64,000 nucleotides of DNA from an uncultured Pelagibacteraceae bacterium (GTDB lineage: Bacteria > Pseudomonadota > Alphaproteobacteria > Pelagibacterales > Pelagibacteraceae): positions 5,001 to 69,000 of the forward strand of contig CACKOH010000005.1 in assembly GCA_902601785.1 (NCBI GenBank). Direction: 5' to 3'. The translations under genes were made by a program, and so were the position numbers. Positions 33,155 through 45,132 of this stretch are shown in pieces. Each line of letters begins with the position of its first letter. Position 1 is the first letter of the stretch. Below the pieces are notes generated by a model. It was not told where the DNA came from and made no database searches. It worked only from the letters and a program-made list of their open reading frames with translations.

Positions 33155-34373
33155 AAGAGGCATTCCATTAATTGACCAACATGATCAATTTGGTTTTTGG
33201 GGAGGGAAATTCGGAGGCAGCTTTATTCCCGAAACTTTGAAAAAACCTGTTGAGGATTTAACAGAAAAATTTAAAAAATTAAGAAAAGATAAAAAATTTA
33301 TTAAGAAGAGAGACTATTATTTTAAAAATTATATTGGTTCTCCAACCTCTTTTGTAAAGTTAGAGAATTTATCTAGTCATCTAGGTGGTGCTCAAATATG
33401 GGCAAAAGTTGTCTCTGAAGCTAACGGCGGTGCGCATAAAATATATAATGCGACTGTGCATGCACTTCTTTGTAAAGCAATGGGTAAAAAATATATCGTT
33501 GGCGATACGGGTGCAGGTTATGCTGGAAAAATGTTAAGTATGGCTGCAAAAAAGTTTGGCTTAAAATGTAAAATATTTATGGGTGCTAAAGATATTAAAA
33601 GGCAAAAACCAAATTGCGATGCAATGAAAAAAAATGGAGCAGAGATTGTTCCTGTGTATTCAGGTAGTCAGACTTTGGTTGATGCTGTTAGTGAATGTAT
33701 GAGATACTGGGTATCAAATTGTGATAATACTCATATGTGCGTTGGTAGTACAGTAGGCCCAAATATATTTGTTAAAATTTGTGGTTGGAGTACTGCTCAA
33801 ATTTCAAGAGAATTAAAGATACAATTAAAATCTGAATTTAAAAAAATCCCAAAAAAAATTAAACTTATTAATTGTGTAGGCGGTGGAAGTTCAGCCTACG
33901 GTTTCTGGAGTGAGTTTATAGATTTTAATAAAAAACAAATTGAGCTGATTGGAGTTGAAGCAGGTGGGCCTAAAAAATCAAAACTTCATGCAGCTCCATT
34001 AAGTAGAAATGCTAAAATTGGAGTTTTACATGGTGCTGCTTCTTATGTTTGCCAAGATAATGAAGGTCAAATTAAAGAAACTGAGTCAATCAGTGCAGGA
34101 CTAGATTATCCAGGTGTAAGTCCTATTCATTGTTTCTTAAAGGATACAAAAAGAGCAAGATACACTTATGCAACTGATGAGGACGCTTTAAATGCGCACG
34201 TTATGGTGACTAAGTTTGAAAACTTAAATCCAAGTTTAGAGCCTAGTCATGCATTTGCAGAAGCAATTAAAATTGCACCAAAGCTTAGTAAGGATACAAT
34301 TATAATTGTAAATTCTTGTGGAGATGCAAAAAAAGATAGGGATATTTTAAAAGAAAGATTGGTTAAAAATTAA
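33144..34373 (+). CDS. trpB: Tryptophan synthase beta subunit, divergent
   Basis: 409 aa. PLP enzyme joining indole and serine. The PLP lysine is in 'GGAHKIYNA' (about 95), and 'GFWGGKFGGSFIPE' and 'AGLDYPGVSP' are typical. Several usually fixed residues differ (Salmonella numbering): the catalytic Glu109 of ETGAGQHG is Asp121 in DTGAGYAG, Lys167 of TLKDA is Val in TLVDA, GGGSNA is GGGSSA, and Ser377 is Cys392 in 'VNSCGDAKK'. It sits between trpF and trpA with overlaps, so a role in tryptophan synthesis is still the best call, but the chemistry may differ. Confidence 0.88.
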   Translation: MKLKRGIPLIDQHDQFGFWGGKFGGSFIPETLKKPVEDLTEKFKKLRKDKKFIKKRDYYFKNYIGSPTSFVKLENLSSHLGGAQIWAKVVSEANGGAHKIYNATVHALLCKAMGKKYIVGDTGAGYAGKMLSMAAKKFGLKCKIFMGAKDIKRQKPNCDAMKKNGAEIVPVYSGSQTLVDAVSECMRYWVSNCDNTHMCVGSTVGPNIFVKICGWSTAQISRELKIQLKSEFKKIPKKIKLINCVGGGSSAYGFWSEFIDFNKKQIELIGVEAGGPKKSKLHAAPLSRNAKIGVLHGAASYVCQDNEGQIKETESISAGLDYPGVSPIHCFLKDTKRARYTYATDEDALNAHVMVTKFENLNPSLEPSHAFAEAIKIAPKLSKDTIIIVNSCGDAKKDRDILKERLVKN

Positions 34374-35173
34374 TGGTCTCATTAATTAATAAAGCTTTTA
34401 AAAAAGCAAGAGATGCTAACAGACCAGCATTATTAACTTACACAGTTGCTGGTGATAATACTAAAAAAAAATCTTTAGATATTCTTAAGTTAATATCAGA
34501 TCATGCTGATATATGTGAGCTAGGTTTCCCACATAACACTCCTATCGCAGATGGTGGCCAAATACAAACTAGTGCTTATCGCGCTATTAAAAATGGAATT
34601 AAAATAAATGATGTTTTTACAATTGCTAAAGCATTTAAGTTATCAAAAAAAACAACCCCTATTATTTTAATGGGCTATTACAACATGATTTATCAATATG
34701 ATGAAAATAAATTTCTTAAAAAATGTAAAAGTTCAAAAATAGATGGTTTAATTGTTGTTGACCTTCCCTATCCAGAAAATAAAAGTTTTTCTGAAAAGTG
34801 TAAAAGAAAAGGTATCAACTTTATACAATTAGTTTCTCCGACTACATCAAATATAAGATTAAAAAAAATTATTAAAGATTCTCATGATATGATTTACTAT
34901 ATAAGTATGCTATCAACTACAGGAGGAAAATTAAAAGTTTCCCCTAAAAAAATTTTAGAAAATTATTTCAAAATTAAAAATCAAAACAAATCAAAAAATG
35001 TTGTAATTGGATTCGGCATCACAGAAAAAACTATTAAATCACTCAAAAAGGCTGATGGTTTGGTTGTAGGAAGTGCGATTTGTAAGGAAATATCTAAATC
35101 AATTAAAAACAGACAAAATGTTGTCACAAATGTTACTAATGTAGTTAGAAGATTAAAAAATAAAATCAAATGA
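34373..35173 (+). CDS. trpA: Tryptophan synthase alpha subunit, divergent
   Basis: 266 aa. It splits indole-3-glycerol phosphate to give indole. The catalytic Glu49 and Asp60 are kept in 'CELGFPHNTPIADGGQIQ', but the PFSDP segment between them is PHNTP, so Asp56 is Thr. 'LMGYYNMIYQY', 'GLIVVDLPYPE', 'GFGITEKTI' and 'GLVVGSAI' support the fold. The mobile loop reads SMLSTTGG rather than SRxGVTG. Start ATG overlaps the trpB stop, and its end overlaps accD by four bases. Confidence 0.9.
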   Translation: MVSLINKAFKKARDANRPALLTYTVAGDNTKKKSLDILKLISDHADICELGFPHNTPIADGGQIQTSAYRAIKNGIKINDVFTIAKAFKLSKKTTPIILMGYYNMIYQYDENKFLKKCKSSKIDGLIVVDLPYPENKSFSEKCKRKGINFIQLVSPTTSNIRLKKIIKDSHDMIYYISMLSTTGGKLKVSPKKILENYFKIKNQNKSKNVVIGFGITEKTIKSLKKADGLVVGSAICKEISKSIKNRQNVVTNVTNVVRRLKNKIK

Positions 35174-36099
35174 ACTGGATTACAAAAATAATAAAAGCTG
35201 GTGAGAAAATCAAAACAGCTATTAAAGAAAGAGCTTCGAAAGAAGATATTGCAAATAGTGATTGGACTTCATGTTGCATAGGTCCAATACTTAAAAAAGA
35301 TTTAGAAAATAACTTATGGGTTTGTCCTGAATGTAACAAGCACCACCGAATTAAGCCTAAAGAGAGATTTGATATTCTATTTGGTAAAAACAATTATGAA
35401 ATATTTAAAACCCCTATTCCAAAAGATGATCCTTTAAATTGGACCGACTCTAAATCATACAAAGAGAGATTAAAAAGTGCTCGAAAAAAAACTGGTTTAG
35501 AGTGTGGAATGATGGTTGCATCTGGCACTATTGATAATGTTAAAATTACTGCAGTTGCATCTGATTTTGATTTTTTAGGTGCCTCAATGGCTGCTGCTGA
35601 AGGTGAAGCTTTTTTATATGGAATTCAACATGCGATAGAAAATAAAACTCCTTTTTTATGTATTAGTGCTGGTGGCGGAATGAGAATGATGGAAAGTTTA
35701 ATTTCATTATCTCAGATGACGAGAACTACTTTAGCAATTAATGAATTAAAAAAAAATGGTTTACCTTACTTGGTTTGTATTACTGACCCTACTGCTGGAG
35801 GGATAACTGCCTCTTATGCAATGCTTGGTGATATCAATATTGCAGAACCTGGTGCATTGATTGCATTTGCAGGAGCTAGGGTTATTCAAGGTACTGTTAA
35901 AGAGGAGTTGCCTGAAGGTTTTCAAAAGAGTGAGTATGTTGAAAAAACTGGATTTGTTGACCTAATAGTAGAACGAAAAGAACTAGCCTCTATAATTGGA
36001 ACTCTATTATCAATATTGTTAAAGCGAAATTCTGTTATAACTTCTGAACAAAATGAAACTGCAGAAGATAGTCAATCGCTTACAAAAGTTGCATCCTAA
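35170..36099 (+). CDS. accD: Acetyl-CoA carboxylase carboxyltransferase beta subunit
   Basis: 309 aa. Partner of AccA. The carboxyltransferase core is clear: 'GMMVASGTIDNVKITAVASDFDFLGASM', 'SAGGGMRMMESLISLSQMT', 'TDPTAGGITASYAMLGDI', 'AFAGARVIQGTVKEELPEGFQ'. The N-terminal zinc ribbon is unusual. The family has CxxC, 15 residues, CxxC; here the first pair is adjacent (Cys-Cys in 'WTSCCIGPIL', about 35-36) while the second is normal ('CPECNKHHR'). The order trpA-accD-folC is conserved in proteobacteria. The last 47 bases overlap folC in another frame. Confidence 0.95.
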   Translation: MNWITKIIKAGEKIKTAIKERASKEDIANSDWTSCCIGPILKKDLENNLWVCPECNKHHRIKPKERFDILFGKNNYEIFKTPIPKDDPLNWTDSKSYKERLKSARKKTGLECGMMVASGTIDNVKITAVASDFDFLGASMAAAEGEAFLYGIQHAIENKTPFLCISAGGGMRMMESLISLSQMTRTTLAINELKKNGLPYLVCITDPTAGGITASYAMLGDINIAEPGALIAFAGARVIQGTVKEELPEGFQKSEYVEKTGFVDLIVERKELASIIGTLLSILLKRNSVITSEQNETAEDSQSLTKVAS

Positions 36100-37321
36100 A
36101 GAAATAGATTTAAGTTTAAATAGAATAAAAAAACTCTGTAAAACCCTTGGAAATCCACAGGACAAATTAAAAGCTATTTCGGTAGTTGGAACTAATGGCA
36201 AATATTCAACTATTCAGGCTTTATTCGCAATTTTAAGAGAGACAAATATTAAATGTAATATTTATACCAGCCCCCATATCAAAAGAATAAACGAAAGATT
36301 TGTATTTAATAATGAAGAATTAAATGATGATGATCTTGGAATTCTTTTTGAGGAAATTGAAGAAGCAAATAACAATGAACCAATAACTTTTTTTGAAATA
36401 TTAACTGCAGCCTACTTTTATAATGCCTCAAAATACCCTGAAAATATTAACTTAATTGAAGCAGGGTTATTTCACCGTTTTGATGCAACAAATATACTAA
36501 GAAATAATTTAGCAAGTATTATAACATCTATTGGCTTGGATCATTTAGATTGGCTACCTGAAAATGAACAAACAATTAAAAAAATAATATTTGAAAAAAC
36601 TTCAACTTTATTAAATTCTAATATTATTATTGCAAAGCAAAATTCTACTGAAATTGTAAATGAAATAAAAAATTCAATTACAAAAAACTCTTCAAAAAAA
36701 TATTTTTTTAATGAAGATTATAATTATTCATTTAATGAAAATGGTTTTATTTTTTATGAAGATAAAAATGGTGGGATTAAGCTTCCAATTCCAAACGTTA
36801 AAGGTCAATTTCAATTAGAAAATATTTCAACTGCAATAGTAACTTTAAGATCGATTGATCAATTGCAAGTTAGTGAAAAACACATCAAAGATGGAGTTAC
36901 TAAAATTAAAAGTATTGCAAGACTCCAAGAAATCAGTTCTGGTAAACTCAAAGAATTGGTAAAAAATAATAAATTACTTGTTGATGGATCTCATAATCCT
37001 TTAGGAGCAAAAGTTTTAAATGAATATTTGGAAAGTTTGAATTGTAATAAACATATTATTCTAGGTATGATGGGCAATAAAGATCATAACGAATATATGA
37101 GTTACTTTAAAAATATTGCCTCTTTGACTACTATAGATATCCCTAATCAACCAAACTCAATCAAAGGAAAAGTATTAAAAAACAAACTTAATAGCTTTGA
37201 AAACGTTGAATATAGAGAAGGTATTATTGATGCTATTAAGTCAATTCCAGTCAAGGAAAACGATATAATTTTGATAACGGGATCTTTGTATCTTGCTGGA
37301 GAGGTGTTAAATCTAAACTAA
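36053..37321 (+). CDS. folC: Folylpolyglutamate synthase / dihydrofolate synthase
   Basis: 422 aa. It adds glutamate to folates. The Mur-ligase-type P-loop is 'VVGTNGKYSTIQ' (about 43-54), with 'YTSPHIKRINERF', 'LIEAGLFHRFDATNIL', 'TSIGLDHLDWL' and 'DGSHNPLGAK' further on. The chosen start gives the conserved 'LQKLHPKEIDLSLNRIKKL' N-terminus but overlaps accD by 47 bases; no later start keeps that conserved region. Converges with trxA with a four-base overlap. Confidence 0.93.
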   Translation: MKLQKIVNRLQKLHPKEIDLSLNRIKKLCKTLGNPQDKLKAISVVGTNGKYSTIQALFAILRETNIKCNIYTSPHIKRINERFVFNNEELNDDDLGILFEEIEEANNNEPITFFEILTAAYFYNASKYPENINLIEAGLFHRFDATNILRNNLASIITSIGLDHLDWLPENEQTIKKIIFEKTSTLLNSNIIIAKQNSTEIVNEIKNSITKNSSKKYFFNEDYNYSFNENGFIFYEDKNGGIKLPIPNVKGQFQLENISTAIVTLRSIDQLQVSEKHIKDGVTKIKSIARLQEISSGKLKELVKNNKLLVDGSHNPLGAKVLNEYLESLNCNKHIILGMMGNKDHNEYMSYFKNIASLTTIDIPNQPNSIKGKVLKNKLNSFENVEYREGIIDAIKSIPVKENDIILITGSLYLAGEVLNLN

Positions 37322-37635
37322 ATATTTTTGTCTAGGAATTCTTTCATATGACCTTCTGGAACTCCTCCAACCTTTCGACTTACTTCTTGTCCTTTTTTAT
37401 ATATAATCACTGTTGGAACTCCACGAATTCCAGCTGCTGAACCTGTATTAATTCCAGCATCTTCGATATCAGTAATGTAAAAATTTGCTTTATCTTTGTA
37501 CTCGTCTGACAATTTATCCATCACTGGTTTAAGAGCTTTACATGGACCACACCACGATGCTGAAAATTGAATCACTGATACGTCTTCATTTTTAATTTTA
37601 CTCTCAAAATCCTCGTCTTTAAAATCTATAAGCAT
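37318..37635 (-). CDS. trxA: Thioredoxin
   Basis: 105 aa. Single thioredoxin domain with the redox site WCGPC in 'FSASWCGPCKALKPVM' (about 28-32), the cis-Pro in 'IRGVPTVIIYKKG' and a standard length. It reduces cytosolic disulfides. It lies downstream of the nuclease genes on the same strand and converges with folC. In many alphaproteobacteria the genes next to trxA here are addA and addB; in this window they are not. Confidence 0.95.
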   Translation of the reverse strand: MLIDFKDEDFESKIKNEDVSVIQFSASWCGPCKALKPVMDKLSDEYKDKANFYITDIEDAGINTGSAAGIRGVPTVIIYKKGQEVSRKVGGVPEGHMKEFLDKNI

Positions 37636-37669
37636 AAAGTCTTTCTATAAATTGGAGCCTTAAAGTCAA

Positions 37670-39106
37670 CTAGGCAATTTCATATTTTTTTTCAATTGAC
37701 ATTATAAATTCATTAATTTCGTCTAATTTTTTCAACTCATCCTGATCGTCGCGATTAGAGGCTTGGTCTCTCAATGTGTCAATTTCAGTATAAGCTGTAC
37801 CAATAGTTTGCCATTTTTCCTTGTTTTTACTCAATATTCTCCTAGCAATTTCACTTTTAATATTTTTGTATAAATCGGGGGGTAAAATATGAGGTGCCTC
37901 TTGGTAGATTATTTTTTGTCCAAACCAACTGCATCTTTTGTCTTGAAACTTATCTAATAATCTTAGTTTATCTTCCCAAGATGAACTATGCCACGTTTTA
38001 AATAATGCAGTATCTTTATTGGGAATAAATTTTTCATACAACGTCTCTTCTGGAAGTAAATCTTCTTGTGTTTGAGTTTGGGCTTTCTCCTCAGCAGCTT
38101 CCCTATTAATAATTTGAATGTTTTTACAAAAATTTTTACTGCCTCTTACTAACTTTACTCTTTTAATAATTGTTTCTGAATCTAATTCTGAATATGCTTT
38201 TTCCTTTAATGCAAATTTTTTATCTAATACTACTGGAGCCTTATTAGTTTTTAGTACTCTTAGTGCTTTTGGACTAATTTTTTTTAAATTTGCTTTAAGC
38301 TCATTAACTGACAAATTTAAAAAAGGTTCTGGATCCCTTCTTAAATCCCAAACATATCCCCAAGATGCATAAGTAGGATGAAAACAATGCTCTGGATGAA
38401 GTGTAGAAACTAGATACATCATATTTCGTCCTTTAACATTTTCAAAGATAGAATAAATTCCCTCATTTTTTAAAAGTGACTCAACACTACTTTTTGTAGA
38501 AGTGCTTAAAAAATTTTCCCAATTATCTTTATGTTGATCTTTTATAATTCTAAGAATTTTTAAACTTGTGAAAGCGTCATGATAAGCTGTATGTTGTTGA
38601 GTGGTATCAAATCCTTGTTGTCGGGCAAGTGCTTCTAAAGCCAAACTTTCATTTCCTGCAGGTGTTAATTCAGTCTTTAAAGTTTTTGAGTTTATCGTTT
38701 GAGCAGCTCTTGCAATATGTAGACCATCAGACTCTTGATTGGGTGAAGAGTGGGTTAAATATGGATATCTGTTTCCTTTAAAAAAATTAAAATGAAACAT
38801 GCGACGATCAAAATTAAGATTACTCCAACCCATGAACAAAGATGGAGCTGCTTTTAAAAAGAAATTTTCGACAGCTCCTAGAAAATCATAATGTGAATAG
38901 TTGCCTTTGGTAAGTAAATCAATACTTGTAGAATTTACTAGAAGTGCTTTTGCACTAGGTACCTCCCCTTCTGGCATTCTGCCTCTAATATTTAACTTTC
39001 CAATTTCCTTAAGATTTTTATCCACAACTACAGCACCAACCTCAATAATGCTTCCCCATATAGTACTATTGGTTGTTTCTGTATCGTAGATTACTATTTT
39101 GTCCAT
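37670..39106 (-). CDS. Exodeoxyribonuclease I-like DEDDh exonuclease
   Basis: 478 aa. The N-terminal exonuclease domain has 'IYDTETTNSTI' (DxE, about 7-9), 'GWSNLNFDRRMFHF' (about 93-106) and 'HTAYHDAFTSLKI' (HxAxxD, about 172-184). An ExoI-specific SH3-like and C-terminal region follows: 'YVWDLRRDPEPFLNLSVNEL' and 'LKTNKAPVVLD' parallel the E. coli ExoI (SbcB) middle part. The family digests single-stranded DNA 3' to 5'. Uncommon in alphaproteobacteria. Eight bases separate it from the PD-(D/E)XK nuclease gene upstream, so they are probably one unit. Confidence 0.85.
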   Translation of the reverse strand: MDKIVIYDTETTNSTIWGSIIEVGAVVVDKNLKEIGKLNIRGRMPEGEVPSAKALLVNSTSIDLLTKGNYSHYDFLGAVENFFLKAAPSLFMGWSNLNFDRRMFHFNFFKGNRYPYLTHSSPNQESDGLHIARAAQTINSKTLKTELTPAGNESLALEALARQQGFDTTQQHTAYHDAFTSLKILRIIKDQHKDNWENFLSTSTKSSVESLLKNEGIYSIFENVKGRNMMYLVSTLHPEHCFHPTYASWGYVWDLRRDPEPFLNLSVNELKANLKKISPKALRVLKTNKAPVVLDKKFALKEKAYSELDSETIIKRVKLVRGSKNFCKNIQIINREAAEEKAQTQTQEDLLPEETLYEKFIPNKDTALFKTWHSSSWEDKLRLLDKFQDKRCSWFGQKIIYQEAPHILPPDLYKNIKSEIARRILSKNKEKWQTIGTAYTEIDTLRDQASNRDDQDELKKLDEINEFIMSIEKKYEIA

Positions 39107-39114
39107 ATTAATAT

Positions 39115-39801
39115 TTAAGCTAAGTTTGAAAGCTCATTAAATTTTTTTAATCTTCCCAAAAATAAGTTCTGATAAACAACTAAATCATGACTTTGAATTT
39201 TAAATTCTTGAAATAATTTATCTACTGTGCAAACTAGGATTACACAAGACGTGATATTAGAGTTATACACAATGTTATGAGCCAATGAATAAGCACTCGT
39301 TTGTAGAAGCCAAGAGTCAATATACTCTGATTTTTTTGGTTTATTGCTTTGTTTAAAATCTATTATCGTTTCTCGTCCCTCATAAACTCCAACACAATCC
39401 GCTGTACCAGCATATTTCTCTGGATAGTAAAGTGTGCATTCAACTCCCCAAATTTCTTCCAATCTATTTTTTAAACCTTTTTCAATAATTTCTTTTGCCA
39501 TTAATTTATATTGTTCATTATCGTCAAAAAAAGTGAGATTTTCTCTCCCAAGAAGATAAGACTCCAAATAATTATGCATTTGAGAGCCCCTGCTACTTGC
39601 TGCTTTTGTAATTGCCTCAGCCTCTTTATAGCCTGTTCTCTCACGCCAATTAGCTAGGGCAGCTTTATCCTCTTCAGAACGAGTTTGATCAAGAATACTA
39701 GTCACTGATGGTAATTTGGCCTCTCCCAATAAATACCTTCTTATACCATCTACCGTAGCTCTTGAGGATTTTGGATAATCGTATTTCTTATTCCACTGCA
39801 T
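39115..39801 (-). CDS. RecB/Cas4-like PD-(D/E)XK nuclease
   Basis: 228 aa from the ATG at 39801 (MQWNKKYDYPKS); a longer frame reaches back into rmuC and is not supported. Residues of the RecB-type nuclease family are in order: the GxxxH element in 'RGSQMHNYLESYL' (about 75), Asp in 'YAGTADCVGVY' (about 138), D-x-K in 'IIDFKQSNK' (about 150), and QxxxY in 'LQTSAYSLAH' (about 169). There is no helicase domain and no Cys cluster as in Cas4. Similar stand-alone nucleases occur in phages. It sits between rmuC and an ExoI-like gene. Confidence 0.8.
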   Translation of the reverse strand: MQWNKKYDYPKSSRATVDGIRRYLLGEAKLPSVTSILDQTRSEEDKAALANWRERTGYKEAEAITKAASSRGSQMHNYLESYLLGRENLTFFDDNEQYKLMAKEIIEKGLKNRLEEIWGVECTLYYPEKYAGTADCVGVYEGRETIIDFKQSNKPKKSEYIDSWLLQTSAYSLAHNIVYNSNITSCVILVCTVDKLFQEFKIQSHDLVVYQNLFLGRLKKFNELSNLA

Positions 39802-39838
39802 GTGATTTCTTATATTCTTTATTGGAGAAAAATTGAAA

Positions 39839-40936
39839 TTAATTATTTGCTTGTTTTGAACGATCAACAAATTTTTCAACATTTTCAGTTTGAACAGCTT
39901 TTTCAAGTTGTTCAGGATCTTTAATGCTTTCAAGCGTTCTTGTGATTGATCTAGCATCTGTTCCAAACTTATCTACAACAGCCATTGCTTCTTCTAATTT
40001 TTTTCTTAGTGAAATAATATTATCGAAGTGCTTACCAAATCTTGAACTGATTGTTTTTAGATGGTTGTATATTTCTGTTGCACCTTTTTGAACTTTCAAT
40101 GACTGAAAACCCATGTGAAGAGATTGTAAATAAGCTGAGAGAGTATTTGGTCCACAAATTACAACTTTATATTTTTTCATTAATTCTTGAGTTAACAATT
40201 CTTTAGTACTTGGATCTTGGTATTCAGTTAATTCTTTATATAAACTTTCAGTCGGTGCATAAACAATTGCAAAATCTGTAGTTTTTGGTGGAACAATATA
40301 TTTTTCATTAACAATCTTAGCTTTAGCTTTGAAAGCAGTTGCTAACTTAGCTCTTGCATCTGCAATAGCTCTTTTATCATCCGCGTCATAACCATCTGTA
40401 ATTGCTTTAAATTTTTCAACAGGAAAATGACTGTCAACTGGAACCATAACATCTCCTTGAAGCTTAATTGAAAATTCAACATTTTCACTTGTATCCTCTT
40501 TCATCTTTACATTTGTCATAAATTGAGATGCAGGTAATAAATCTTTTATTAAAGCATCTAAACTAAATTCCGCTAGCGTTCCATATTTTTTAACTCCAGC
40601 TAAAATTTTAGTGATCCCCTCTTGACTTTGATTTAATAACTTTACTTGTTGATTAAAATTTCCAACTTTTTCATCAACTTTAGTTAAGGCTTCAGTCATA
40701 TCTTTTGTAACTCCTGTTGATAGATTATTAAAGGAGGTTGACATTGAGCCCAGTGAGGTATTAATAGTATTATTGAGAGTGTCTTTTAAATTCTGAATTT
40801 CAGTCTTTAAATTAGATATCTCCTCGGCTTCCTTATTTTCATAATCATCCTTAGGCTTAGATTTTAGATTAAGATAAAGAATTGATGAGGCAATCCCTAC
40901 TAATAAAACTAATAAAACAATTAAAATTATATCCAT
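39839..40936 (-). CDS. rmuC: DNA recombination protein RmuC
   Basis: 365 aa. One N-terminal membrane helix (about 2-24), a coiled-coil segment (about 35-110) and the RmuC core with 'DSHFPVEKFKAI', 'YIVPPKTTDFAIVYAPTESLY' and 'VVICGPNTLSAYLQSLHMGFQSL'. The core belongs to the PD-(D/E)XK nuclease clan; RmuC limits inversion at short inverted repeats in E. coli. It is the first gene of a minus-strand series with a RecB-like nuclease, an ExoI-like nuclease and thioredoxin. Confidence 0.93.
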   Translation of the reverse strand: MDIILIVLLVLLVGIASSILYLNLKSKPKDDYENKEAEEISNLKTEIQNLKDTLNNTINTSLGSMSTSFNNLSTGVTKDMTEALTKVDEKVGNFNQQVKLLNQSQEGITKILAGVKKYGTLAEFSLDALIKDLLPASQFMTNVKMKEDTSENVEFSIKLQGDVMVPVDSHFPVEKFKAITDGYDADDKRAIADARAKLATAFKAKAKIVNEKYIVPPKTTDFAIVYAPTESLYKELTEYQDPSTKELLTQELMKKYKVVICGPNTLSAYLQSLHMGFQSLKVQKGATEIYNHLKTISSRFGKHFDNIISLRKKLEEAMAVVDKFGTDARSITRTLESIKDPEQLEKAVQTENVEKFVDRSKQANN

Positions 40937-41001
40937 GATTCTTATAATTTATTTTATAGTAAAAATATGATTAATATATTTAATTATTTAAAACTTATCC
41001 G

Positions 41002-41133
41002 ATGGAATTATTCTTAATATCAAAAATTATATTTGTTATAGGAGTGGTTATTGCTCTTTATGCTGTAGTCAGAAACCTTGATATTATAAGGATTATTTTA
41101 ATTTATTGGAAAGATCTAATCCTTAGAAAGTAA
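41002..41133 (+). CDS. Possible 43-aa membrane microprotein
   Basis: ATG at 41002 to TAA at 41131-41133. The peptide is MELFLISKIIFVIGVVIALY, a single hydrophobic helix, followed by 'AVVRNLDIIRIILIYWKDLILRK' with a second amphipathic stretch and a basic end. It starts in the gap between rmuC and hisG, divergent from rmuC, and its last 18 bases overlap the 3' end of convergent hisG. No family recognised. Support is the uninterrupted frame, the coherent membrane pattern and the use of otherwise empty sequence; there is no strong ribosome-binding site. Confidence 0.4.
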   Translation: MELFLISKIIFVIGVVIALYAVVRNLDIIRIILIYWKDLILRK

Positions 41134-41808
41134 GTTAGACAATTTTTTAACTTTTTTATTTTTAAAAGAAGATTTTGATATCATCATACAAGCCTTGGAT
41201 TTTAATATTTCTCCATCTTTTAGAATACGAAGATTATTAGCTTTTAAAGTCTCACCTGTTGAAGTTATGTCTGTGATAATCTCACTTGATCCAGTGAAAG
41301 GATAGGCTTCCGTTGCCCCCAAACTACCTACTAATTTGAATTGTGTTACTCCTTTTGAAAACAAGAACTCTCGAGTTAAATTGGGATATTTCGTGGCTAC
41401 TCTTAACCTTTTTTTCTTTTTATCTTTAAACTCAAATGCAATTTCCTCTAAATCTGCAACTGTTTGGACATCTATCCAGGGATCTGGAATTGCCACAACT
41501 AATGTTGCTTTTCCAAAATCATATTTTTTAGTAACATAAATTTTATTTTGAATATTAATTTCACTTTCTTTTAGTAAATCAAAACCTGAAAAACCTAGAT
41601 CTAATGAGCCATCACCAAGTCTTTCAACAATTTCTCTTGCATGAAGATACAAAACTTTAATATTTTTTAATTGTTTAATAGAGCCTATCAAGTCTCTTTC
41701 ACCACGTTCAGAAATAAGACTCAAATTATTTTTTTTAAAGATCTTTAAAATATCTTTTCTTAGTCTGCCTTTGCTGGGAATTCCAATACTAATAATATTT
41801 TTTGTCAT
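41116..41808 (-). CDS. hisG: ATP phosphoribosyltransferase, short form
   Basis: 230 aa. First step of histidine synthesis. 'IGIPSKGRLRKDILKIF' starts the protein, with 'LDLGFSGFDLL', 'RVATKYPNLTREFL', 'GATEAYPFTGSSEIITDITSTG' as the PRPP-binding region. It is the short form without the C-terminal regulatory domain, which requires HisZ, and hisZ lies directly upstream with a one-base overlap. Other histidine gene in the window is hisD (45135). Confidence 0.95.
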   Translation of the reverse strand: MTKNIISIGIPSKGRLRKDILKIFKKNNLSLISERGERDLIGSIKQLKNIKVLYLHAREIVERLGDGSLDLGFSGFDLLKESEINIQNKIYVTKKYDFGKATLVVAIPDPWIDVQTVADLEEIAFEFKDKKKKRLRVATKYPNLTREFLFSKGVTQFKLVGSLGATEAYPFTGSSEIITDITSTGETLKANNLRILKDGEILKSKACMMISKSSFKNKKVKKLSNLLSKD

Positions 41809-42860
41809 TAATTACTTAAGTTTAAAGCAGCCCCAACTGCTGGTATTTGTTTTTCAGAGCCAAGATCAGAAATTAATTTATCATATCTGCCTCCATTAAT
41901 TATATTTCTATTTTTTGACTTAAATTTAATGTCAATTTTAAAAACCATACCTGTGTAGTATTCTAATTGCCTTCCAAAAGAAGCTGAGAAAACTACATTA
42001 AGTTTTGAAATTTTATTTTTCGAAATTGGGAAATAATTTTGATCAACCACCAAATTAATCTTATTTTTTTTAAAAAATTTATTTAATTCAGCTGCTGCTT
42101 TATTTATTGGGCATTTTATTTTAAGAAAATTTTTTATGATCTGTGATACGTTTTTTCCTCTACTGGCTCCTCTTGGGTCCCTAATTTTATTATCAAATCT
42201 TTTTAATATTTCATTAATTGATCTTCCTGCAATAAATTCAGATAAATCCTCTTTTAACATTTTAAAATATCTTTTTTTGTCAATCTCAACAATAGTTGGG
42301 TCTACATCTGAGTTAGTTTCTAATCTTTTTAAAAGATCATTAAAATATTTCTCTCTCCAAAAATGCCTTATCAATCTTAACTTCCAACGCTTTGGGATGT
42401 TGAGTTTTGAAATTAATAAATTAAAGACTTCAACATTCCCAATAGTTAATGTTCCTGTTGTATATTTTATATTTTGTAGAGACTCTAAAGAAGTATTTAT
42501 GATTTCTTTATCGTCATTCTTTTCATCTTTTGATCCAATGATCTCAAAACCAACCTGATTTCTTATTATTGAATCTTTTTTATTTTGTACCTTTCTGTAT
42601 GCCTGACCACTATAGAAAATTTTCTCTTTACCTTTCAAATTTTCGTCTAAGTACCTTAAACAAGATGCAATTGTTAAGTCGGGTCTTAAGCATAATTCCT
42701 TCCCATTTATATCTATAAAGGAAAACATGAATTTCCTGAAGTTCTCTCCTGATCTTTGAACAATATGATTTGCCTCTATTACAGATGGTAGCTCAATATA
42801 TTTAAAACCCTTAGATTTTACTGACCTAAGGATTTTTTCAGATAAGTTTTTTGACTTCAT
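41808..42860 (-). CDS. hisZ: ATP phosphoribosyltransferase regulatory subunit
   Basis: 350 aa. A HisRS paralogue that activates short HisG and lacks aminoacylation activity. Class II synthetase-like motifs are present: 'LCLRPDLTIASCLRYL', 'FYSGQAYRKVQ', 'GFEIIGSKD' and 'LEYYTGMVFKI', 'INGGRYDKLISDLG'. It follows hisS, its paralogue, with a 23-base overlap and precedes hisG, so a hisS-hisZ-hisG unit is likely. Start is the first ATG giving the expected N-terminus. Confidence 0.93.
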   Translation of the reverse strand: MKSKNLSEKILRSVKSKGFKYIELPSVIEANHIVQRSGENFRKFMFSFIDINGKELCLRPDLTIASCLRYLDENLKGKEKIFYSGQAYRKVQNKKDSIIRNQVGFEIIGSKDEKNDDKEIINTSLESLQNIKYTTGTLTIGNVEVFNLLISKLNIPKRWKLRLIRHFWREKYFNDLLKRLETNSDVDPTIVEIDKKRYFKMLKEDLSEFIAGRSINEILKRFDNKIRDPRGASRGKNVSQIIKNFLKIKCPINKAAAELNKFFKKNKINLVVDQNYFPISKNKISKLNVVFSASFGRQLEYYTGMVFKIDIKFKSKNRNIINGGRYDKLISDLGSEKQIPAVGAALNLSN

Positions 42861-44232
42861 TGATTAAATCTTCTTTTGGGATTGTTTTGTTGTTTTCGCC
42901 CTTAATACCTTTTAGATTTTTTATGGTGACAGTATTTTCTTTAAATTCATTTTCACCACAAATAATTGCAACTGATAAATCTCGTTTATTTGCAAAAGTT
43001 AATTGTTTACCTAGATTTTTTTTACTATCTAAAAAAATTTCAGCATTAATACTATTAACTCTTAGTTGATCAACAATCTCATAATAATTTTTTAAATATT
43101 TTTTATCCATTACACATACTAAAACTGGTTTTTGACCCTCTACATTAATCTGATCTAATTGCATTAAAGCGAATAACAATCTATCAACTCCAAAACTTAT
43201 TCCAGTGCCTGGAATATCAACTCCTCTAAATCTTGATATAAGTTTTGCATAGGCTCCACCTGAACATATGCTGCCGATATCAACTTCCTTACCTTTGTTA
43301 TTTGTGACTTTGAAATTTAAGTTTGTTTCAACAATAAAGTCCGAATAGTAAGCTAATCCTCTCACAATCGTAAAATTTGTTTTAACTTGATTTAAATTTG
43401 ATCCATATCCAAGCACCTCAAATACATTTTCTAATTCACTTATTCCTTCTTGAGATAGTTGATTTTTTAAGGTTTGTTTTAATTCTTTTAAATCTTTTAT
43501 TTTTAAGAAATTTAATATTTGTGCTGCTTGTTTATCAGTTAAATCAGCCCCTTTAGTGATTGCTCCACTTTGATCTTTTCTCTCTTTCCTCAATAAATCT
43601 TCAACTCCCTTTAGACCAAATCCTGGCTTATCTAATTTATCTATAGCTCTAATAACTTTGACCTGTTTTTCTTCAGATATTTTTAATTCATTGATTAAAC
43701 CTTGCACGATTTTTCTATTACTTACATTGATTGTAAATTGAGTTTTATTCAAACCACAATCTAATAGTGTGCTTGATATTAGATTACAAAGTTCTGCATT
43801 TCCCTGTGCTGGATCAACATTCCCAACAATATCAAAGTCTGCTTGCATAAATTCTCTATACCTTCCGTTTCCAGCTTTTTCGTTACGAAAAACGTTTTGA
43901 ATTTGGTACCTTTTGAAAATTGATGGAAGTTCTTGATTATTTTGAGCTACAAATCTTGCAAGTGGGCTTGATAAATCATATCGAAGCGTAATACTTTTTT
44001 CACCATCTTGGAATGAGAATACATCAGACATAGGATTGGCCTCATCTTCTGCCAAAAAAGATCCAATATTTTCACTAATTTCAAACGAAGGGGTTTCAAG
44101 CGGTTCTGCTCCAAACTTAATAAAATTATTCTCGATAGCTTTTAATAGCTTTTTTTTGAGAAGAAGTTTAATTTCCCAACGATCTTCAAATCCTGAAGGT
44201 AATCCAGGTACTAATTTATTTTCTTTATCCAT
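42838..44232 (-). CDS. hisS: Histidyl-tRNA synthetase, divergent alphaproteobacterial type
   Basis: 464 aa from the ATG at 44232 (MDKENKLVPGLPSGFEDR). An open frame further upstream runs through the tRNA-His gene and must be rejected. Class II motifs: motif 2 in 'FRNEKAGNGRYREFMQADFDIVG' region (about 120), 'GLAYYSDFIVET' (canonical GLxYYTGxVFE) and motif 3 'GISFGVDRLLFAL'. These variants fit the HisRS of alphaproteobacteria whose tRNA-His lacks G-1. Only four bases separate the start codon from the CCA of tRNA-His, and no ribosome-binding site is visible. Confidence 0.93.
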   Translation of the reverse strand: MDKENKLVPGLPSGFEDRWEIKLLLKKKLLKAIENNFIKFGAEPLETPSFEISENIGSFLAEDEANPMSDVFSFQDGEKSITLRYDLSSPLARFVAQNNQELPSIFKRYQIQNVFRNEKAGNGRYREFMQADFDIVGNVDPAQGNAELCNLISSTLLDCGLNKTQFTINVSNRKIVQGLINELKISEEKQVKVIRAIDKLDKPGFGLKGVEDLLRKERKDQSGAITKGADLTDKQAAQILNFLKIKDLKELKQTLKNQLSQEGISELENVFEVLGYGSNLNQVKTNFTIVRGLAYYSDFIVETNLNFKVTNNKGKEVDIGSICSGGAYAKLISRFRGVDIPGTGISFGVDRLLFALMQLDQINVEGQKPVLVCVMDKKYLKNYYEIVDQLRVNSINAEIFLDSKKNLGKQLTFANKRDLSVAIICGENEFKENTVTIKNLKGIKGENNKTIPKEDLINEVKKLI

Positions 44233-44236
44233 TTTT

Positions 44237-44311
44237 TGGTACCCGGGCTGAGAATCGAACTCAAACTTAAAGTTCCACAAACTTTCGTGCTAACCGTTAC
44301 ACCACCCAGGC
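44237..44311 (-). tRNA. tRNA-His (GTG)
   Basis: 75-base cloverleaf: acceptor GCCTGGG/CCCGGGT, anticodon arm AAAGT-TTGTGGA-ACTTT with anticodon GTG, T-arm TTGAG-TTCGATT-CTCAG, encoded CCA. The discriminator base is A73 and the base before G1 is T, so the usual encoded G-1 and C73 of bacterial tRNA-His are absent. This is the exceptional alphaproteobacterial type. Directly upstream of hisS. Confidence 0.96.
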
Positions 44312-44361
44312 ATCCCTTGATTTTATATTATTTTCTGTGGATTTAAAATTATATTATAAAT

Positions 44362-44390
44362 AAATAGCCTAAAGGCTATGTAGGCTATTT
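44362..44390. repeat. Perfect 10-bp inverted repeat in the tRNA-His upstream gap
   Basis: AAATAGCCTA (44362-44371) and TAGGCTATTT (44381-44390) form a stem with a 9-base loop that itself repeats GGCTA. On the minus strand the stem is followed by ATTTATTT, so it could end transcripts coming from cspA before tRNA-His begins. The 228-base gap 44312-44540 otherwise has no convincing frame. Confidence 0.5.
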
Positions 44391-44483
44391 CTGTGAGTAC
44401 TTCTTGAAGTCTCTCTAAATGTAATATTTATAATCATAAGCAGTCTTTTAGACAAAAACTACTATAACGCAAGCTTTAAATAA

Positions 44484-44525
44484 TTAAGGACGTAATTCTA
44501 TTCTAATAAGATAAAACGTCCTTAA
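44484..44525 (-). terminator. Hairpin 3' of cspA, possible terminator or 3' stabiliser
   Basis: TTAAGGACGT (44484-44493) pairs perfectly with ACGTCCTTAA (44516-44525) across a 22-base loop. It starts about 15 bases after the cspA stop on the minus strand. The following T-run is weak (AATTATTT), and the loop is long for an intrinsic terminator, so a 3' stabilising stem is also possible. Confidence 0.4.
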
Positions 44526-44540
44526 AAATATTAAAAAAAA

Positions 44541-44753
44541 TTAGTCTACTTTCTTTAAATTAACTGCAGAAGGACCTTTAGGACCATCTTCTAATGTAAA
44601 TTCAAGTTTATCACCCTCATTAAGATATCTCATTCCAGCATCTTTTACTGCAGAGGCATGAACAAAGGCGTCTTTTTCTTTATCGTCTCTTTCAATAAAG
44701 CCATATCCTTTTTTTCCATTATACCATTTAATTTTACCAGTTAGTGTACTCAT
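44541..44753 (-). CDS. cspA: Cold shock domain protein
   Basis: 70 aa, one cold shock OB-fold. RNP1-like 'KGYGFIERDD' (about 15-24) and RNP2-like 'DAFVHASAV' (about 28-36) are present, with 'GDKLEFTLEDGPKGPSAVNL' at the end. The family binds single-stranded RNA and acts as an RNA chaperone; it need not be cold-induced. It lies between tRNA-Phe and tRNA-His on the same strand. Upstream leader to tRNA-Phe is 82 bases and A+T-rich. Confidence 0.95.
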   Translation of the reverse strand: MSTLTGKIKWYNGKKGYGFIERDDKEKDAFVHASAVKDAGMRYLNEGDKLEFTLEDGPKGPSAVNLKKVD

Positions 44754-44835
44754 CTTATTTCTTAGTCCTTTTGTTATTTATTATTGGAAATAGGTTAATT
44801 TTTTTTTGGATTATTTCAAGATCAAAAGTAGTGGG

Positions 44836-44910
44836 TGGTGCCTCGGGAAGGATTCGCACCTCCGACACAAGCCTTTTCAGGGCTCTGCTCTACTCCTGAG
44901 CTACCGAGGC
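44836..44910 (-). tRNA. tRNA-Phe (GAA)
   Basis: 75-base cloverleaf: acceptor GCCTCGG/CCGAGGC with A73 and encoded CCA, D-arm GCTC/GAGC, anticodon arm GAGCC-CTGAAAA-GGCTT with anticodon GAA. The T-arm is GGAGG-TGCGAAT-CCTTC, so base 55 is G in place of the usual T (pseudouridine site). Lies six bases after the infA stop, probably processed from the same transcript. Confidence 0.94.
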
Positions 44911-44916
44911 AGGATT

Positions 44917-45132
44917 TTAACCTCTAAAGATTATTCTGCCTTTTGTAAGATCATAAGGTGTCATTTCTACAGTCACATTATCACCTTGAAGAACTCTAAT
45001 TCTGTTTTTTCTTAACTTACCTGCTGTATGAGCTGTAACCGTATGTCCATTTTCTAACTTAACTCTAAACATAGCATTTGGAAGAAGATCAATTACTTTA
45101 CCCTTAAATTCCAGTAAGTCTTGTTTTGACAA
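44917..45132 (-). CDS. infA: Translation initiation factor IF-1
   Basis: 71 aa, the standard length. OB-fold factor that binds the 30S A site. '[20 protein letters not shown]', '[22 protein letters not shown]' and '[12 protein letters not shown]' match the family closely. It follows hisD by two bases and precedes tRNA-Phe, so a ribosome factor gene, amino acid biosynthesis gene and tRNA share one strand and probably one transcript. Confidence 0.97.

Follow-up and report, generated by a model that had tools for sequence, protein, structure and literature searches.

The DNA analysed here is a 64,000-nucleotide stretch (the window) of contig CACKOH010000005.1, positions 5,001 to 69,000, from an uncultured Pelagibacteraceae bacterium (GenBank assembly GCA_902601785.1) whose genome assembly amounts to 1.04 Mb in 33 contigs and is 87% complete. 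Close to trxA it carries a gene for a phage-family PD-(D/E)XK exonuclease, hereafter the nuclease, which lies between rmuC and an exoI-like gene. The genes of the locus, in window coordinates, are the following.

39839..40936, minus strand: rmuC, transcriptionally the first of the three (PF02646, 164.9 bits)
39115..39801, minus strand: phage-derived MGME1-type PD-(D/E)XK exonuclease of PHROG 298, 228 amino acids, ATG start
37670..39106, minus strand: exoI (sbcB-like) DEDDh exonuclease, 478 amino acids, with PF08411 and RNase_T domains and sequence matches to exonuclease I structures
37318..37635, minus strand: trxA (PF00085), the conserved edge of the slot
36053..37321, plus strand: folC, convergent with trxA with a 4-base overlap, used as synteny anchor

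Transcription follows the order rmuC, nuclease, exoI and trxA, with gaps of 37, 8 and 34 bases, and the first three genes may be co-transcribed. The original prediction, made from the letters of the window alone, had described a nuclease trio following trxA on one strand with spacings of 8 and 37 bases; genes and coordinates are confirmed. An alternative TTG start of the nuclease at 39966, within rmuC, was rejected, most full-length relatives starting near the ATG. The description of the base composition as matching that of the neighbours holds for overall G+C content (0.336, neighbours' range 0.265-0.343), but third-position G+C (0.240) is slightly higher than the 0.161-0.219 of the neighbours.

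A phage-family exonuclease with a predicted MGME1-like fold

The profile of PHROG 298, annotated "exonuclease", matches the nuclease over most of its length (E 7.2e-49, positions 24-253 of 293), while Pfam PDDEXK_1 scores 15.6 against a cut-off of 22 and leaves it below threshold. In an alignment of 55 sequences (the window protein, 51 viral and 3 Pelagibacter proteins) residues G72, H76, D135, D148, K150, Q167 and Y171 are invariant; they are those of the RecB-type motifs GxxxH, D, DxK and QxxxY that had been read from the window sequence. The sole relatives by sequence in the PDB are entries of human MGME1 (E 3e-11 with the single sequence, 1e-21 with a profile), whose H, D and DWK align with the catalytic H, two D and K of the nuclease. 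An AlphaFold model built from the 55 sequences has a predicted local distance difference test score (pLDDT) of 93.1, compared to 35 for a single-sequence prediction. The top nine Foldseek matches of this model are all MGME1 (best E 1.9e-13), the next protein following at 3.2e-6. VIA-align superposes model and MGME1 with a Z-score of 22.4 over 187 residues at 2.1 Å; the five MGME1 entries have Z-scores of 20.5-22.4, the next protein being RecE at 13.6; AddA reaches 11.5. The nuclease is thus a phage-family exonuclease whose modelled fold is MGME1-like.

The two proteins have in common the whole predicted fold and the catalytic H, D and DxK, with 24-26% identity in structural alignments. MGME1 is a mitochondrial protein, whereas the nuclease is encoded by a bacterial chromosome and its activity is predicted from sequence; we infer a similar mode of action and make no claim of orthology. 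With AddAB and RecBCD it shares the RecB-type nuclease domain fold, and its gene occupies the same slot as addA, but those enzymes have helicase domains that the nuclease lacks. Cas4 resembles it in fold and gives weak profile matches; the iron-sulphur cysteines of Cas4 are conserved, while no cysteine is invariant in either nuclease alignment and TIGR00372 reaches 14.5 bits against a cut-off of 65. The likeness to RecJ, a member of the DHH superfamily, lies in the proposed job alone, the trimming of single-stranded DNA at its 5' end, fold and sequence being unrelated.

Distribution and neighbourhood in Pelagibacterales

The order was sampled with 147 Pelagibacterales genomes, one per species and mostly incomplete. 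The nuclease is found in 71 of the 76 genomes of the window's genus, here called Pelagibacter, and in none of 18 genomes of sister genera; the 53 genomes of the second family give two doubtful matches. One of these two (G119) is a marginal match at E 8.5e-4. The other (G121) covers 46 residues at 78% identity on a contig that also codes for an ExoI with 86% identity to the window protein; by its sequence, this region (G121:C25 1840-3423) looks like a misbinned Pelagibacter contig. Only three genomes in a sample of 385 from the class have the nuclease, all from this genus. The 80 loci kept out of 520 matches belong to Pelagibacteraceae or Pelagibacterales genomes and to Candidatus Pelagibacter ubique.

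Flanking sequence could be read for 65 of the 71 nuclease loci of the genus. In 52 of them rmuC, nuclease and exoI are adjacent on one strand, which together with the near-fixation of the nuclease shows that the trio is real and not a chance arrangement. In the other 13, rmuC is swapped, turned or elsewhere, the contig ends, or (two loci) the nuclease is convergent with exoI. In the sister genera rmuC and exoI are immediate neighbours in all eight loci read, adjoining trxA in five and separated from it by one or two other open reading frames (ORFs) in three. All five loci of the second family have this pair next to trxA too, in reversed order. Since rmuC and exoI are neighbours in lineages devoid of the nuclease, the latter joined an older pair.

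The slot has other occupants. Five loci (L076, L077, L079, L080 and L315, in G072, G137, G079, G116 and G156, respectively) code in or beside the trxA-exoI interval for a large protein of 1119-1134 amino acids where whole, which is split in two frames in G079 and lies between folC and trxA in G137. The two copies scanned, from G072 and G116, have Cas4-like, RNase_H_2 and superfamily 1 (SF1) helicase domains. This alternative content also includes a different RmuC. G072 and G137 have, in addition, proteins of about 530 and 196 amino acids, those of G072 giving no Pfam match. A DUF2130 protein takes the place of rmuC in L279 (G149), and one accompanies a large protein that weakly matches a leucine-rich repeat model in L081 (G012) and L082 (G082). 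This points to a slot whose members can replace one another.

Phage origin and selection

Of 50,697 phage records, 885 match the nuclease, with two pelagiphages and one seawater phage at the top (43-47% identity); viral contigs reach 51%. Members of PHROG 298 include proteins of pelagiphages HTVC023P and HTVC027P, of cyanophages P-SSM2 and P-SSM3 and of jumbo phages. The window nuclease is of the same family but differs from the phage members in being chromosomal, in belonging to a host clade apart from the sampled viral proteins and in being nearly fixed beside a repair-type gene pair. A tree was built from 40 viral proteins and 37 of the 65 host proteins available, and rooted by our choice on two cyanophage proteins. 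With the amino termini trimmed to the ATG start, all 37 host proteins form one clade (support 99/100), and the host/virus state changes once in all 200 bootstrap trees. The ratio of nonsynonymous to synonymous substitutions (dN/dS) is 0.02-0.06 in seven pairs, showing a gene in use under purifying selection. Untrimmed ORF calls, which carried up to 55 extra amino-terminal residues, gave the same outcome (clade support 100/99, dN/dS 0.03-0.07). As far as sequences can tell, the gene results from one old capture from phage, and the proteins of the tree show no trace of exchange since then. A phage origin, which had been proposed for the three genes as a set, is therefore retained for the middle one.

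ExoI and RmuC

ExoI scores 59.7 bits with PF08411 (Exonuc_X-T_C, cut-off 27) and 27.3 with RNase_T (cut-off 24). Its 94.8 bits with the NCBIfam equivalog PRK11779 are below the required 260, making it a divergent member that is not called an equivalog. The exonuclease I family degrades single-stranded DNA in the 3'-5' direction. RmuC is a plain member of its family (cut-off 26 bits). Both proteins are present in all ten genera of the order, ExoI in 138/147 genomes and RmuC in 136/147. A tblastn search with ExoI of the phage records gave no match at E 1e-5, though the protein does match the phage profile PHROG 19080 (E 1e-31). Assignment of ExoI to a DRT defence system (PADLOC RTasSbcB, E 7e-54) was rejected, as E. 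coli SbcB scores alike (1e-52); among ORFs of at least 90 amino acids at window positions 34000-45000, none is left between folC and hisS for a reverse transcriptase.

Two further observations concern the exoI gene. In G110 (C3 156825-158293) it lies in two frames, with a TAG read through in one match, next to an intact nuclease gene; this is a pseudogene or a sequencing error. In G101 (L323) ExoI is 75% identical to the window protein and the adjoining nuclease 96% (compared with window 37670-39801), which is a single-gene allele replacement inside the unit. Alleles of trxA and folC are likewise mosaic across the genus.

AddAB and the addA position

The place of the trio had been described as the usual position of addAB. 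This is borne out in other Alphaproteobacteria, where 50 of 58 genomes have an addA match (39 above cut-off) and, of 30 loci fetched, 24 have trxA within 1.5 kb of addA. The genome search called for by the original prediction identified AddB in none of the 147 genomes of the order, the Caulobacter control being positive. AddA was not found above the family cut-off in any of them, the frames among the matches listed having at most 755 amino acids. The window's own genome has one UvrD-type match. Larger frames were noted in G038 (1118 amino acids, weak UvrD match) and in G068 and G072 (1130-1138 amino acids, touching PDDEXK_1); that of G072 was ruled out as AddA by the domains of its large slot protein described above. 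The available text of PMC12374537 also reports SAR11 to be devoid of RecBCD. AddAB is missing whether or not a lineage has the nuclease, indicating that its loss is older or independent. It does not track the nuclease, while the absence of recJ does.

RecJ and the nuclease

In bacteria, the 5' ends of single-stranded DNA are usually trimmed by RecJ. Its profile (TIGR00644) identifies a protein in 15/76 genomes of Pelagibacter, 17/18 of the sister genera and 46/53 of the second family. With the sample restricted to a completeness of 90% or more, 13 of the 70 genomes that have the nuclease encode RecJ, against 29 of the 35 that lack it (Fisher p 2.8e-10, kinship ignored). Complete RecJ copies that persist in the genus score lower, ~360-425 bits versus 520-575 elsewhere.

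The site of the missing gene was located by synteny. A tRNA scan of five RecJ-positive loci gave the order a9, recJ, tRNA-Glu and a11, where a9 and a11 are the flanking genes. G062 and G070, both RecJ-negative, in a single contig and 99% complete, have a9, tRNA-Glu and a11, with only the tRNA gene enclosed in the about 127 and 140 bases that separate the aligned ends of a9 and a11. The clean absence of recJ was seen at the site in these two genomes only; in the expected region of G068 (120 kb) the neighbour genes were not found. A search at E 0.01 of 400 kb across three genomes, G062 and G070 included, gave no match to RecJ.

The RecJ state changes at least three times on the tree of the nuclease, a count unaffected by trimming; this is a gene tree and not a species phylogeny. 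A species tree from trpB, trpA and accD (nine RecJ changes) was set aside because it looked confused by recombination and long branches. None of the papers retrieved by the literature searches connects Pelagibacter, in its title or first lines, with an MGME1-type nuclease or with a loss of RecJ, and the account of SAR11 recombination in PMC12374537, in its available part, does not name RecJ.

Possible role of the nuclease

Given the predicted fold, the neighbourhood and the distribution, we hold with moderate confidence that Pelagibacter captured an MGME1-type phage nuclease that trims 5' ends and that has made RecJ dispensable in most of the genus. The ancestor of the genus would have acquired the gene from a phage, and it would have been placed with rmuC and exoI, a pair already at the addA position beside trxA. 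By analogy with MGME1, the enzyme would be a single-strand-specific exonuclease acting on 5' ends and flaps, ExoI would trim 3' ends and RmuC would be an accessory protein. The 5'-strand resection that RecA loading, the repair of gaps or the removal of flaps requires may now rest on the nuclease. In the available texts on MGME1, the protein prefers single-stranded DNA, cuts flaps and degrades single strands in both directions (PMC6237815), and is stimulated by a 5'-phosphate (PMC9460513).

Several points weigh against this proposal. MGME1, as described in the part of PMC6237815 available, cuts from both ends, so that the fold does not reveal the polarity. At the locus, promoter and terminator patterns are not more frequent than in shuffled sequences and neither support nor exclude a single transcript. 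Well-supported branches of the nuclease tree force only two of the three RecJ changes, and a single change, at the root of a clade of 48 rows (support 100/100), accounts for most of the pattern. Thirteen genomes hold both genes, so the nuclease did not force RecJ loss at once. Conversely, six genomes at least 90% complete (G040, G048, G112, G124, G135 and G137) have neither, and RecJ can thus be lost, or missed in the assembly, without the nuclease. For G112 and G135, folC, exoI and rmuC were not found either and the region may be absent from the assemblies, while G137 codes in or beside the slot for a different PDDEXK protein of 258 amino acids and for the helicase-nuclease. The survey of other 5'-acting exonucleases was limited to RecJ.

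Alternatively, the nuclease could serve replication by removing 5' flaps or primers, like MGME1 with POLG or rnh in T4, and the RecJ losses would reflect streamlining. MGME1 is described in the available text of PMC11002302 as a 5'-3' partner making ligatable ends, and the genome context in phages is consistent with such a task. The homologue of cyanophage P-SSM3 (L378 1441-2124) directly precedes gp33 and gp59, with gp32 one gene further. In T4 (L381 4788-5705) rnh, coding for a 5'-3' exonuclease, is followed by dsbA, 33, 59, a homing endonuclease gene and 32, so that the cyanophage gene sits near the place of rnh. Among Synechococcus-named records, 376 match the cyanophage exonuclease and 41 T4 rnh; the two enzymes are mostly but not strictly complementary. 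The six genomes with neither nuclease nor RecJ also fit a replication role. Against it, the nuclease of Pelagibacter adjoins rmuC and exoI rather than replication genes, RecJ differs strongly between genomes with and without the nuclease, and some phages (PAC2 and Sharanji) match both enzymes, rnh weakly; we regard this explanation as possible but rather unlikely.

Improbable in our judgement is that the nuclease acts with ExoI in clearance of linear DNA or defence, degrading ends of phage or taken-up DNA in a trxA-his slot that would be a hot spot for nuclease and defence genes. The large protein of five genomes, with Cas4-like, RNase_H_2 and helicase domains in the two copies scanned, the DUF2130 protein in place of rmuC in G149 and the part of MGME1 in eliminating linear mitochondrial DNA fragments (PMC11002302, available text) speak for it; near-fixation in the genus, a single clade and slow evolution, unlike most defence genes, and the lack of a fitting PADLOC system speak against it. 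There is very little chance that a three-gene phage-derived end-processing set replaced AddAB, as first proposed. AddAB was indeed not found, the addA slot is occupied and ExoI matches a phage profile, but the order-wide presence of ExoI and RmuC, the missing tblastn match of ExoI in phages and the lack of AddAB also where the nuclease is missing already contradict it.

Significance for Pelagibacter

Pelagibacter are among the most abundant bacteria of the sea. SAR11 recombines freely and the RecF pathway is absent from Ca. Pelagibacter ubique and subclade Ic, according to the text available of PMC12374537. Free recombination without RecBCD and, in part, RecF raises the matter of how SAR11 prepares DNA ends. 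The nuclease provides one named candidate for an end-processing enzyme, small enough to be purified and with a relative of solved structure, and the captured-nuclease proposal makes a clear prediction, recJ complementation. MGME1 is also listed among genes abundant in open-ocean metagenomes, with no organism assigned (PMC10834444, in its available part).

A phage MGME1-type nuclease is nearly fixed in a free-living alphaproteobacterial genus. We suggest, tentatively and with less than even confidence, that most Pelagibacter recombine without AddAB or RecBCD, RecF and RecJ, a domesticated phage nuclease of this type carrying out 5'-strand resection. Replication of mitochondrial DNA relies partly on phage-type enzymes, and if the suggestion is true Pelagibacter would offer a parallel to mitochondria.

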